Positions 6,026 through 29,213 of a stretch of DNA of 37,506 nucleotides are shown here, piece after piece. The DNA is from Candidatus Wolfebacteria bacterium. GTDB lineage: Bacteria; Patescibacteriota; Minisyncoccia; UBA6257; UBA9933. A program made the position numbers and the translations under genes. The first letter of the stretch is position 1. Each line of letters begins with the position of its first letter. Location of the stretch: NCBI GenBank assembly GCA_016214005.1, contig JACRPK010000022.1:1-37506 (forward strand), in the 5' to 3' direction. A model generated the notes under the pieces. It saw nothing but the letters and a program-made list of their open reading frames with translations. It did no database searches and was not told the DNA's origin.

Positions 6026-7273
6026 ATGAATTCTTCAATTACGGCATTGGCGAAAATTTTGAAAATTGAAGCGCCGATGCTTTTAAGTTTAGATCAAAAA
6101 ATGTCTCAGGCGGCCGGAAAAACCGGAACGCTCGATTTTATTTTTAACGAAAATCAAAAATTAACAGATGAAACTGTTGCGAAAATCAACGGCGATAAAA
6201 ATAGCGACGCTTATTATATTTTGGGATCTCTTAGAAAAACGATTTTTAACCACGAGGTAAAATTGAAAAATTTTTTGGAAAATATTCAGGGCGAAAATAT
6301 TTTTGAAAAATCGGTGGCCTTGGCGAAACAAATGGTAAAATTTGAAAAAGGACATTTTTTGAAAAAAGAAAATATTAAAAAAATATTGTTGTCGCGACCA
6401 CCGCAGCATTTAATGGAATATTTGGGATATAAAGATATAAATTTGCTTGTTGAAAAAGAAGATTTGACGGAATGTTTCAGCGCTTTGCGATTTACCGAAT
6501 CTAATGACTGGATGCACGAGACATTCAAAGAAGTTTATAGCCATTTTGCGCCGAGCGATTTTGAAGAGCGGGAAATTGAGGTAAAAGTTTTAGGAGAAAA
6601 ATGGCATGAAATCGCCGAAAGATTTGTTGCCAAAAAACACCATAATGTGAGCCATTTAAAAGAATTCGGCGTGATATTTTTGAATCCGATTGCGGAAAAT
6701 ATTCCGGGGAAATTGTTGCGCGATTTTTTGCTTTTTCTCCATTATTTTCATGAAGTTGATTTTTATTCAAAACTTTTTAAAAATTGCTTTAATTGTCCGG
6801 ATTTTTCCGGAAGGTTTCAGTCTCTTTTGCGCGGTGATGTAAAAGAAATTTTTGAGGCGAAAGATGGCCAGTGGCTGATTGTTCAAAGGTATCTGAGCAA
6901 AGAAAATCCAGATGATCCAAGATTATTTATGCCGCGCGTTAATCCTGAATCAATCCATTGGTTAAGGGGCGAGCGGGATTTCGCAGAGTATTTTAAAAAA
7001 ATTGGAGATAATGATTTGGCGATGTGGAGTGATTTGGGTTGGGTGGGCGCTTTTTTCAAGCGCGGCAATTTTGAAGAGCTTTTGAGCTTTGACATTGAAG
7101 ACAACGCGATGTCAGTCGTTTCTTTTATGGAGGGCCGCGGGTTGGAACAATTTTTTACTTATCATCAAACCGAGGCGATGTGGACAAGAATTTTTCAGGA
7201 GTATGTTGGCGGCGAAGAAAATATGGAGCGTTTTTTAATTGATAATTTCGACAAGGGAGTGATTAAATTTTAA
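6026..7273 (+). CDS. Conserved-looking hypothetical protein, 415 aa
   Basis: I do not recognise a named domain. The protein is soluble, with no signal peptide or membrane helix, and is predicted mostly helical. Notable segments are LLSRPPQHLMEYLGYKDINLLVEKEDLTECFSALRF, a histidine-containing KWHEIAERFVAKKHHNVSHLKEFGVIF stretch, and an aromatic-rich C-terminus (WSDLGWVGAFFKRGNFEELLSFDIEDN...FFTYHQTEAMW). It starts 3 nt after the response regulator and has clean coding character over the whole length, so the ORF is real. Its position suggests a link to the receiver protein, but nothing in the sequence proves it. Confidence 0.85.
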   Translation: MNSSITALAKILKIEAPMLLSLDQKMSQAAGKTGTLDFIFNENQKLTDETVAKINGDKNSDAYYILGSLRKTIFNHEVKLKNFLENIQGENIFEKSVALAKQMVKFEKGHFLKKENIKKILLSRPPQHLMEYLGYKDINLLVEKEDLTECFSALRFTESNDWMHETFKEVYSHFAPSDFEEREIEVKVLGEKWHEIAERFVAKKHHNVSHLKEFGVIFLNPIAENIPGKLLRDFLLFLHYFHEVDFYSKLFKNCFNCPDFSGRFQSLLRGDVKEIFEAKDGQWLIVQRYLSKENPDDPRLFMPRVNPESIHWLRGERDFAEYFKKIGDNDLAMWSDLGWVGAFFKRGNFEELLSFDIEDNAMSVVSFMEGRGLEQFFTYHQTEAMWTRIFQEYVGGEENMERFLIDNFDKGVIKF

Positions 7274-7337
7274 GTATATTTTATTGGTAGAGATACTGGC
7301 AAGAAAAGATTTTATGAGTTAGAATTTTTATAAAACT

Positions 7338-8213
7338 ATGGAATCTTTAAAACAAATAATTCAAGAAGCAAAAGATAAAAAAGTCGCTGTCGGACATTTT
7401 AATATTTCCGAATGCGTCGCTTTGAAAGGAATTTTTCAGGCAGCCAAGGAATTGAATTTGCCGGTGATTATCGGCGTTTCCGAAGGAGAGCGGGAATTTA
7501 TCGGAACAAAACGCGTTGCTTTGATGATAAAAAGCCTTCGCGAAGAATTTAATTGGCCGATTTTTTTAAACGCCGACCATACTCATTCGCTTGAAAAAAT
7601 AAAAGAAGCGGTTCTTGCGGGTTTTGACGCTGTTTTGTTTGATGGAGGCAAATTAGCGATTGAAGAAAATATCAAGAAGACCAAAGAGGTGGTTGAATAT
7701 GTTAGAAGTATAAATCCGAATATTTTAGTTGAAGGTGAACTTGGCTATATCGGTTCAAGCTCCACGATTTTAAAAGATATTCCCGAAGGCGCGGCCATTA
7801 AAAGCGAAGATTTGACGAAACCGGAAGAGGCTGCTTATTTTGTTAAAGAAACCGGAGTTGATTTGCTGGCGCCGGCAGTCGGTAATATTCACGGAATGTT
7901 TAAAAATTCTCCTAATCCGAATTTAGATATTAAAAGAATAAAAAATTTAAGCCAATCTGTTGATAAATTTGGGGCGCGGCTTGTGCTCCATGGCGGTTCC
8001 GGCATTAGCGACGATGATTTTATAAAAGCCATTGATGCCGGCATCTCAATAATTCACATTAATACTGAAATTCGTCTGGCCTGGAGACAAGGCGTGGAAA
8101 AAGCTCTTGCTCAAAATCCGGAAGAAATTACGCCTTATAAAATTTTGCCAACAGCCATTGAAGAAATAAAAAAAGCGGTTGAATTACGGTTGAGATTGTT
8201 CAATAGAATTTAG
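7338..8213 (+). CDS. fba: Class II fructose-bisphosphate aldolase family protein
   Basis: The 291-aa protein has the zinc-dependent class II aldolase signature: NADHTHS with catalytic Asp80 and zinc His81, VEGELGYIG (Glu134), zinc ligands His185 in GNIHG and His218 in VLHGGSG, and the phosphate-binding HINTEIR. It cleaves or forms ketose bisphosphates; fructose-1,6-bisphosphate is the default substrate, though tagatose-bisphosphate (GatY/KbaY) relatives look similar. With the split transketolase and the PfkB kinase it builds a short hexose/pentose interconversion route. The stop TAG is followed at once by the MFS transporter ATG. Confidence 0.93.
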   Translation: MESLKQIIQEAKDKKVAVGHFNISECVALKGIFQAAKELNLPVIIGVSEGEREFIGTKRVALMIKSLREEFNWPIFLNADHTHSLEKIKEAVLAGFDAVLFDGGKLAIEENIKKTKEVVEYVRSINPNILVEGELGYIGSSSTILKDIPEGAAIKSEDLTKPEEAAYFVKETGVDLLAPAVGNIHGMFKNSPNPNLDIKRIKNLSQSVDKFGARLVLHGGSGISDDDFIKAIDAGISIIHINTEIRLAWRQGVEKALAQNPEEITPYKILPTAIEEIKKAVELRLRLFNRI

Positions 8214-9434
8214 ATGGCAAGATTTTTCTTGGAAAAAATTTTCCCCGATGGTGTTGTTCCGCGAGACGTAAAATTTCTTACATGGGCAACGACTGTGAGA
8301 TTTATGGGTTGGAGTTTTGTAGAATCGCTGATCCCGGTTTTTCTTTTTTCTTTTGCCCGCAATTATGCCGAGACTGGTTTATTGCGTTCAATTTTTGACA
8401 TTGTTTATATTTTAGCTGTTCCTTTTGTCGGAATTTTGGCCGATAAAATTTCTACCCGAACAATTTTGATTATCGGCATATTGTTTTATCCGTTTGTCGG
8501 ATTTTTTTATTTTTGGGCGGGAGTAACAGGAGTGGCGTTATTTATCGTCGCGGCGAGATTTTTTAATGGAATAGGATTCGCTTTTGATAGTATCGGTCGT
8601 AGTACTTATTTCAGAAAGCATGTTAATAAGCCGGTAATTTCAACCGCTTTTGGATATTTCGATTCCGTTACCAATTTTTTTTGGGTTTTGGGAGTGCTTT
8701 TCAGTTTGATTTTGATAAAAATTTTCCCCGTTCATGCGCTTTTTTTGGCGATTATTCCGACATCATTAATTGCCCTAGTGATGTTTTTTTATTTGAAAAA
8801 AGATGGCGGCAAAAATATTAAAGATGGGGTTGCAGGCATTTTTAAAGATGGAATTTTTTATAGCATGTGGAATGAAATGCGGGGCTGGAATAAAAATTTG
8901 CGACTTATCAGTTTTGTGACTTTTTATTTGGGATTTATCGGAGTGGTTAATAATTTTATAATCCCAATCGATGTTTATAAAAATGGAGGAAATTATCAGC
9001 AAATTATATTGATAGGAGCGGTTTTGGCTCTGCCTTATATTTTTGGTTTTTATCTTGGAGAAATAGCCGATGAAAAACGCAAAATTTCCGTATTAACCGG
9101 AATTGCTTTTATATCTTTATTTTTTTTATTATTGGCGTTTACGGAAAATTATGCGTTGAAACTTATTTTTGTTTTCGGATTAAGCCTGGCGTTTGATTTG
9201 ATTATTTTGGCTTTTGCCGGAATCACGACCCAGAGCGTCAGCGAAGAACATTACGGAAGATTGAGCAGTATTTTAGCCGACAGTGGTTCTTTGGGGGCGC
9301 TTTTTGGCCCGATTGTTTTGGGAATTTTGGCTGATATTTTGGGATTGCGTTCAACTTTTATAATTTTTTCTTTAATCAACATTGTCATTTTTATTCTTTT
9401 ATTGGTTCAGTTAAAAAATTTTAGTCAGAAATAA
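8214..9434 (+). CDS. Major facilitator superfamily transporter
   Basis: The 406-aa protein has about 12 hydrophobic helices in two six-helix bundles with a charged middle loop (FYLKKDGGKNIKDGVAGIF... MWNEMRGWNKNLR). The loop after helix 2 carries GILADKISTRTILIIG, the MFS motif A (GxxxDRxxRR type), and a second one, GEIADEKRKISVLTG, stands in the second half. The substrate is not predictable; drug/sugar-type MFS members are the nearest by feel. It starts directly at the aldolase stop codon (0 nt gap), so it is co-transcribed with the carbon metabolism genes, which makes a sugar or organic phosphate substrate attractive but unproven. Confidence 0.88.
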   Translation: MARFFLEKIFPDGVVPRDVKFLTWATTVRFMGWSFVESLIPVFLFSFARNYAETGLLRSIFDIVYILAVPFVGILADKISTRTILIIGILFYPFVGFFYFWAGVTGVALFIVAARFFNGIGFAFDSIGRSTYFRKHVNKPVISTAFGYFDSVTNFFWVLGVLFSLILIKIFPVHALFLAIIPTSLIALVMFFYLKKDGGKNIKDGVAGIFKDGIFYSMWNEMRGWNKNLRLISFVTFYLGFIGVVNNFIIPIDVYKNGGNYQQIILIGAVLALPYIFGFYLGEIADEKRKISVLTGIAFISLFFLLLAFTENYALKLIFVFGLSLAFDLIILAFAGITTQSVSEEHYGRLSSILADSGSLGALFGPIVLGILADILGLRSTFIIFSLINIVIFILLLVQLKNFSQK

Positions 9435-27964: not shown

Positions 27965-27998
27965 TTGACTGAAATTTTTAAAAGGCGTATTCTATAAT
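27965..27998 (+). promoter_or_regulatory. Promoter of the two-gene cassette
   Basis: TTGACT (27965-27970), 17 nt, TATTCT (27988-27993); a consensus TATAAT (27993-27998) overlaps with a 22-nt spacer. Unlike other units here it leaves a 5' leader of about 55 nt before the likely start GTG 28058. Confidence 0.6.
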
Positions 27999-28043
27999 TA
28001 GTAATTTAAGGAGTTCTTTAAAAATTAAATATGCAAAATGGCG

Positions 28044-28051
28044 AAAGGAGG
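28044..28051 (+). promoter_or_regulatory. Strong Shine-Dalgarno site deciding start of cassette gene 1
   Basis: AAAGGAGG ends 6 nt before GTG 28058, whereas ATG 28031 has its nearest purine run (AAGGAG) 17 nt away. The GTG is therefore the better start. Such a full SD site is rare in this window. Confidence 0.7.
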
Positions 28052-28057
28052 CGCGTC

Positions 28058-28651
28058 GTGGAAGTAGGGAAGAACCCGATAAAAAGCGGTGAGAATATAA
28101 TTGAAGAATGGGGATCAGTTATCAGAACTTTTTTCGGATGTTTCAATGGAGATATTTCAAGCGTTAAGATTCCCGAATATCTCGAAGAGTTTTCCGATGC
28201 GATTGTTATGCCTGGTGATATAACTTGCCAAAGACTTTATGAAAAAGCGCGTGAAGTATTTGGTTGTGACACTTCGGTTGATTTGATGGGGGCGAATTTT
28301 GACAGGGTGATTTCATCATCAAGACCGCGCTTGCCATATGCTGCAAGAATCCGTAAGCAAAATATACATTGTAGTTGCGGAATTTGCGGTTGTGATGTTG
28401 GAGAAACTTTAATGATTTCCGATATCACTCTCCCTGAATTTTTTCTTCTAATACTAAGGCATTATAAGGAATTCGGAAGCTTGTCTGATGAAAAAGTGGC
28501 AACGATTTGCGGCGGTTCGTATTTATCAAATGGAGGGATTCCTGTTGCGCGCTCAACGGAAAAAGGAATTTTTGTCAGCTGGACGCCTGGATTTAGAAAA
28601 TTTTCCAATAACTCTGCGCGTTTTAGAAAAGTAGTTATTAACAAATGTTGA
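28058..28651 (+). CDS. Cassette gene 1: Cys-cluster protein of unknown function, about 197 aa
   Basis: I do not recognise this protein. It has no membrane helix or signal peptide. Visible are an N-terminal helical part (GENIIEEWGSVIRTFFGCF), KAREVFGCDTSVDLMGANFDRVISSSRPRLPYAARIRKQN, and a tight cluster HCSCGICGCDVG (residues about 104-115) that could hold zinc, then SDITLPEFFLLILRHYKEFGSLSDEKVATICGG. It looks richer in G+C than its neighbours by eye, and has its own promoter. It shares a transcript and SD style with the PD-(D/E)XK-like gene 18 nt downstream, which suggests a functional pair. The alternative start ATG 28031 would add nine residues. Confidence 0.75.
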   Translation: MEVGKNPIKSGENIIEEWGSVIRTFFGCFNGDISSVKIPEYLEEFSDAIVMPGDITCQRLYEKAREVFGCDTSVDLMGANFDRVISSSRPRLPYAARIRKQNIHCSCGICGCDVGETLMISDITLPEFFLLILRHYKEFGSLSDEKVATICGGSYLSNGGIPVARSTEKGIFVSWTPGFRKFSNNSARFRKVVINKC

Positions 28652-28653
28652 CG

Positions 28654-28661
28654 AAAGGAGG
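28654..28661 (+). promoter_or_regulatory. Strong Shine-Dalgarno site of cassette gene 2
   Basis: AAAGGAGG lies 8 nt before ATG 28670, identical to the site before cassette gene 1. Two identical full SD sites in one small unit set it apart from the SD-less genes around it. Confidence 0.75.
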
Positions 28662-28669
28662 TAAAAGGT

Positions 28670-29176
28670 ATGGGGGAGAGATCTATCCATAAAAGATGGT
28701 CTAGACCGCACAGTAAGATTGGGCAGGAAGATAAGCATGATTTTCACGATAGCATTGTTGACAGGATATTTGAAAATCCTCAGTTGTTGGGAAATCATTT
28801 TCCGTATAAAAACGGAGAGATTGTTTTGAAGGTAAAAGAGCCGCATCTTCCTAATTTTTATGCTACTAAAAATCGCGGAAGTGTTATTGATATTTTGGCT
28901 GTTTGCCGGGAAAGGAATTCTATTTATATAGTGGCGATTGAAGTAAAAGTAGGATATTTTCATAGAAGACGCGGTTTTAGCCAGATTGGGAAAGCTGCTG
29001 GATATTTTAAAAGGTGTTGGAAGGAGTGGATGATTTCCTCTGGCATTGAGAAATCTAATATAGATAATATAAATAATGTTTATTTTCTCGGAATCTTAGC
29101 CGAGAGACCGAATTACCCAGAAATAAACTTTGAAAAGTGGGTAAAGTCTCCAATGAGATTTTGCCTTAACGGATAA
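28670..29176 (+). CDS. Cassette gene 2: PD-(D/E)XK nuclease-like protein, 168 aa
   Basis: The central part reads NRGSVIDILAVCRERNSIYIVAIEVKVGYFHRRRGFSQIGKAAGYFKRCW. Asp74 (VIDIL), Glu91 and Lys93 (IEVK) have the order and spacing of the PD-(D/E)XK core, on two hydrophobic strands, and Gln105 in a following helix (SQIGKAAGYF) fits the motif-IV position. Many restriction, repair and defence nucleases use this core, so a metal-dependent DNA nuclease is a reasonable inference. No second domain is present, the N-terminus is very basic with many His (IHKRWSRPHSK), and no target is implied. It is co-transcribed with the Cys-cluster gene and ends before a clear terminator. Confidence 0.7.
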   Translation: MGERSIHKRWSRPHSKIGQEDKHDFHDSIVDRIFENPQLLGNHFPYKNGEIVLKVKEPHLPNFYATKNRGSVIDILAVCRERNSIYIVAIEVKVGYFHRRRGFSQIGKAAGYFKRCWKEWMISSGIEKSNIDNINNVYFLGILAERPNYPEINFEKWVKSPMRFCLNG

Positions 29177-29182
29177 TCTATT

Positions 29183-29213
29183 GGGAGCGGCTAAACCGCT
29201 CCTTTTCATTTTT
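29183..29213 (+). terminator. Rho-independent terminator of the cassette
   Basis: GGAGCGG (29184-29190), loop CTAAA, CCGCTCC (29196-29202), then TTTTCATTTTT. This 7-bp GC-rich stem with T-tract is the strongest intrinsic terminator in the window and closes the two-gene unit. Confidence 0.88.

Follow-up and report, generated by a model that had tools for sequence, protein, structure and literature searches.

A probable retired DGR target gene beside a nuclease-like gene in a Candidatus Wolfebacteria genome

Between two housekeeping genes of a Candidatus Wolfebacteria bacterium lie two short genes, and the locus raises the question of where this pair came from and whether its two proteins act together. 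The host assembly (GCA_016214005.1) comprises 638,697 bases in 22 contigs with a completeness estimate of 100%; the window referred to below is the whole stretch of DNA analysed, 37,506 nucleotides of contig JACRPK010000022.1. Gene 1 and gene 2 are both encoded on the plus strand, between a 5'-3' exonuclease gene on the minus strand and fpg. From their own sequences, we take these flanking genes to encode a polymerase-I-type 5' exonuclease and a formamidopyrimidine-DNA glycosylase (Fpg). The initial annotation described a self-contained cassette with its own promoter, and much of this description stands. The two open reading frames are co-directional and separated by a gap of 18 nt, and the two identical ribosome binding sites that it reported are present. 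The Shine-Dalgarno (SD) sequence AAAGGAGG of gene 1 spans 28044-28051, 6 nt upstream of a GTG at 28058, and the identical SD of gene 2 spans 28655-28662, 7 nt upstream of the ATG at 28670. Since the former lies downstream of an alternative ATG at 28031, inside its frame, gene 1 likely starts at the GTG and encodes 197 aa (28058-28651), as opposed to 206 aa if read from the ATG. Gene 2 (28670-29176) encodes 168 aa and is followed by a terminator-like hairpin with a T tail (29183-29203; 8 pairs, 6 of them G-C), which indeed ranks first among the 50 terminator-like sites of the window. The remark that the surrounding housekeeping genes mostly lack SD sites is also borne out: of the remaining window start sites that were checked, DksA alone shows an SD-like stretch, a weak GAGG. 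The promoter is less secure. The promoter-like segment at 27965-27998 contains a 9/12 consensus match (TTGACT-17-TATTCT, 27965-27993) and a 10/12 match (CTGAAA-18-TATAAT, 27969-27998), but it is recognised by consensus only and chance matches that strong are common. Altogether, the tight spacing, the identical SDs and the common terminator favour joint expression, and we infer that both genes are co-transcribed from one mRNA.

Searches of public genomes with gene 1 retrieved relatives in 9 of 380 genomes of the phylum, 21 of 286 of the class and 15 of 200 of the order (overlapping sets, own genome included), with best E values per genome down to 6e-14. These relatives are mostly about 190-310 aa long and can be aligned over most of their length at 20-28% identity; 15 sequences share 11 invariant columns (W27, P48, R98, Y103, E136, D153, T158, G162, S163, G168 and R199). 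A profile made from 27 relatives from named public genomes, with gene 1 left out, detects gene 1 at E 7e-20. Against the same profile, the N-terminal 110 residues and the C-terminal 82 residues score 3e-12 and 4e-8 when searched singly, and none of 200 shuffles or of the other frames of the window scores. For the contig scan, alignment A1 was too diverse and A2 was used in its place. The homology runs full length, into the C-terminal part (28498-28651, from VATICGGS to the end) that corresponds to the VR in the targets of diversity-generating retroelements (DGRs). Judging from these alignments, gene 1 is almost certainly a homologue, and a very divergent one, of the variable (target) proteins of DGRs in the candidate phyla radiation (CPR). 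The earlier statement that gene 1 has no recognisable family holds for the models of Pfam, PHROGs, PADLOC and NCBIfam, none of which matches it, but not in view of this homology. The gene-1 family as a whole has no covering model in Pfam or NCBIfam. Gene 1 has no match in phages, and scans of viral contigs returned nothing.

In 17 of the 27 relative loci, RT and Avd genes adjoin the variable protein gene; the other 10 have no RT nearby, and some of them are cut by contig ends. The template repeat (TR) of the relatives is adenine-rich and located about 230-325 nt behind the variable protein gene. In 18 TR/VR pairs compared, one of which belongs to a DGR of the host genome itself with a different target family (contig C4), 339 of 367 mismatches fall at template adenines. 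Because RT and Avd genes adjoin and the mismatches are adenine-specific, the gene-1 relatives can be taken as hypermutated variable proteins of the CPR kind (PMC8144416). CPR DGR targets are small, typically lack recognisable other domains and go mainly with RT clade 2 (Roux et al. 2021, PMC8144416). A hairpin lies no more than 70 nt from the stop codon in most relatives of gene 1. A strong SD is usual in this family and, therefore, the SD alone is no sign of a foreign cassette. Gene 1 shares with the variable proteins of CPR/Patescibacteria DGRs this strong SD, the small size, the full-length homology and the lack of recognisable other domains. Paul et al. are said to have surveyed such proteins earlier, in 2017. 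Another contig, CAIMIV010000068.1 (L123), carries three tandem DGR-target genes at 108-2056 with no RT match within the stretch, and more copies are found on other contigs of that genome (L122, L132).

Gene 1 differs from these variable proteins in what surrounds it and in one internal stretch. The window yielded no substantial match to RT or Avd, no hairpin was found behind the VR-equivalent segment, and no TR for this segment was found anywhere in the host assembly, where no match extends beyond about 20 bases. In addition, gene 1 forms the longest branch of the family tree (6.07, against a median of 0.66). The cysteine cluster read previously as HCSCGICGCDVG is present at 28367-28393 (HCSCGICGC, residues 113-121 in ATG numbering); it stands in place of a conserved EADEE..SA stretch, and its CxCxxCxC pattern occurs in no relative. 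It is because of these missing DGR parts, the long branch and the unique cluster that gene 1 looks retired. What gene 1 is, and that its locus lacks the DGR parts, can be taken as firm; that it is a retired DGR target is probable.

On the contrary reading, gene 1 would have remained an active target and would receive its mutations in trans, from a resident DGR or from a TR missing from the 22-contig assembly. A study of other genomes proposes diversification in trans (PMC10907252), some of the 10 relative loci without an RT nearby may represent trans targets, and the host genome contains two RT loci. However, each of the two resident TRs has a target other than gene 1, and direct alignment of the gene 1 VR to the C4 TR and to a variable protein relic on contig C17 gave nothing. 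Together with the lack of a TR-like match in the assembly, the missing post-VR hairpin and the completeness estimate, this renders continued diversification very improbable.

The resident DGR on contig C4 (L026:5900-8760) serves a target of another family ('MSAGTEF...'). Its VR (6534-6667) and TR (7007-7140) are 82% identical, with 23 of 25 mismatches at template A; Avd follows on the minus strand (7190-7501) and RT on the plus strand (about 7556-8509). This RT is possibly broken, since one TAA interrupts it after the YADD motif. The second DGR, on contig C17 (L027:1-2620), has a formylglycine-enzyme-like target at the contig start, an Avd-like gene (942-1286), an open RT (1205-2449) and, on the reverse strand behind the RT, a TR with an Asn-rich reading (NNGVESAIFGNSGCNYANWNWIGNNTGNENSNAFRCVR). 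The relic, further along C17 (L027:11434-11559), derives from a canonical DGR target of the gene-1 family (LEERLLFELFYFWTAKKHLDINTITLCAGSRYLSGQVSSVDW...); it has no start and its VR end is lost. As the host carries such a relic, a standard member of the family was probably present in its lineage at one time. Elsewhere among the relatives, a long-branched DGR-target gene (L037/L077:4866-5792, genome G552; branch 2.45) has no RT or Avd nearby and a weak hairpin. This would be a second candidate retired target, and retirement may have occurred more than once.

The predicted model of gene 1, made with 28 sequences, reaches a pLDDT of 81 and a pTM of 0.80. Its order of elements (strand 56-60, helix 66-77, helix 134-148, then strands 157-204) is compatible with a C-type lectin core; the cysteine cluster is modelled at a pLDDT under 50. 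Foldseek searches of this model against PDB and BFVD gave no significant match, solved C-type lectins included, and 8oks, a C-type lectin (PMC10769870), appeared at E 4.8 only. In the case of AvpA, an earlier DGR target, the fold escaped prediction until it was solved (PMC5006420).

Gene 2 has the nuclease signature that the initial annotation had pointed out. The segment IDILAV...IVAIEVKVG...SQIGKAAGYF holds D74, E91-x-K93 and Q105, that is, the D-x16-E-x-K signature of the PD-(D/E)XK superfamily with the glutamine in the next predicted helix. This pattern, written post hoc with the protein already seen, matches one of 962 ORFs (gene 2 itself) and 4 of 20000 shuffles. A single-sequence model, at pLDDT 37 too poor to use, places strands at 75-81 and 84-90 and a helix at 102-123, where a PD-(D/E)XK core would need them. 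No PD-(D/E)XK model or other family of Pfam or NCBIfam matches. Among the described anti-phage defence proteins in PADLOC, gene 1 has no match and gene 2 has one, a weak match of residues 48-116 to the DndH profile (PDLC02683; E 3.5e-4). DndH belongs to phosphorothioation-dependent restriction; its profile has 1389 positions as compared with the 168 aa of gene 2, and no other dnd gene was recognised adjacent to the cassette. On its motif, gene 2 is a likely member of the PD-(D/E)XK superfamily.

No credible homologue of gene 2 turned up in the genomes of the phylum (380), class (286) and order (200), nor in contigs of GTDB or of viruses, nor among phages or plasmids, the contig scans reaching close relatives only. 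Several candidates were discarded: the weak matches in G579 and G755 fall in a REP-type transposase frame and in a sugar-transferase-like ORF, respectively, those in G146 and G165 failed to be reproduced by tblastn, and phiC31 gp3 scored E 0.8. Within loci carrying gene-1 relatives, gene 2 has no match in any of 67 (27 + 40, partly the same genomes). These results lend no support to the plasmid-addiction system suggested earlier, nor to a conserved and widespread defence system. The more specific idea of a toxin-antitoxin or addiction pair, with gene 2 as nuclease toxin and gene 1 as antidote, would suit two small co-directional genes and a nuclease motif. Nevertheless, members of the gene-1 family live as DGR targets without such a partner, and neither a plasmid match for gene 2 nor a phage match for either gene was obtained, so that an addiction pair is most unlikely.

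Horizontal gain had been proposed from an apparently higher G+C of the cassette. This argument is ruled out, as G+C is 39.6-40.3% in gene 1, 36.7% in gene 2 and 40.1% in PyrG, and GC3 is ordinary. Codon usage, by contrast, lends mild support to the proposal: with scores of 0.05 and 0.11, against 0.12-0.29, gene 1 and gene 2 depart furthest from host usage among 14 genes scored. Moreover, those members of the same family that were sampled yielded neither gene, although the Fpg-PyrG-HolA synteny goes on without the cassette in most of them, which indicates that the cassette was not vertically inherited with its flanks. Upstream of Fpg, gene order varies within the family. The same observations bear on the reading of gene 2 as a DNA-repair nuclease, with gene 1 incidental. 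The nature of the two flanking genes would agree with it, but the unconserved gene order and the failure to find gene 2 in the relatives leave it with a very low probability.

The question is then whether the two proteins work together. In the reading that we develop here, the ancestor of gene 1 would be a DGR variable protein, namely a ligand-binding scaffold whose C-terminal region is hypermutated in the relatives. Having lost its DGR link, gene 1 would have changed rapidly and become fixed, with a new cysteine loop that may bind metal. Gene 2, on the same mRNA and with the identical strong SD, would encode a nuclease that is small and PD-(D/E)XK-like. A single ligand or partner would be recognised by the gene-1 protein, with the nuclease as the action part, controlled, aimed or perhaps restrained through an interaction with gene 1, in a division between sensor and effector that might extend to defence. 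There is a precedent in other bacteria, where putative conflict systems link DGR targets with CLec domains to effectors (PMC10907252, PMC7159879). We give a lineage-specific operon of this kind, in which a fixed ex-DGR ligand-binding protein and a nuclease have a joint function, a probability of about 0.35. The pair is known from one genome only, flanked by housekeeping genes and no defence genes, so that joint working of both proteins has no comparative support. About as likely is that a retired DGR target and an unrelated nuclease gene share an operon by accident and without joint function, as two strong-SD accessory genes at a rearrangement point. The single occurrence of the pair is in line with an accidental operon, as is the lack of conservation upstream of Fpg. 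So are the 28 AAGGAGG-start sites of the genome, many of them preceding short uncharacterised ORFs, and the lack of any gene-2-like partner behind the RT-less variable protein relatives inspected. The tight spacing, the identical SDs and the single terminator argue the other way.

Compared with known systems, the sensor and nuclease reading resembles the Thiohalocapsa DGRs (PMC10907252) and the VMAP/vWA-MoxR ternary systems (PMC7159879) in the idea of a diversified ligand-binding domain joined to an effector. Those systems comprise large STAND, vWA or MoxR proteins, mostly peptidase or TIR effectors and active DGRs, whereas the cassette consists of two small proteins with no NTPase and no DGR at the locus. 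From other CPR DGR variable proteins, gene 1 is set apart by the nuclease-like gene that follows it in the same operon. The strongest form of the proposal, a frozen DGR target wired to a PD-(D/E)XK nuclease as a minimal two-protein immune device of a CPR bacterium, is unlikely on this evidence, which is one genome deep. If true, such a sensor-nuclease device would give a first hint at the role of intracellular CPR DGR targets. These are very common, and a retired homologue with a nuclease-signature partner is a testable lead to their function. A fixed, non-hypermutated gene 1 is also easier to study than its hypermutated relatives.

As for translation initiation in this host, the 28 AAGGAGG-start sites (L161-L188) are perfect matches, which are rare in the genome, and compare with 5 in a reversed control; 13 of the 28 lie on contig C1. 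It looks as if the accessory genes of this bacterium used SD initiation and most of its housekeeping genes did not.
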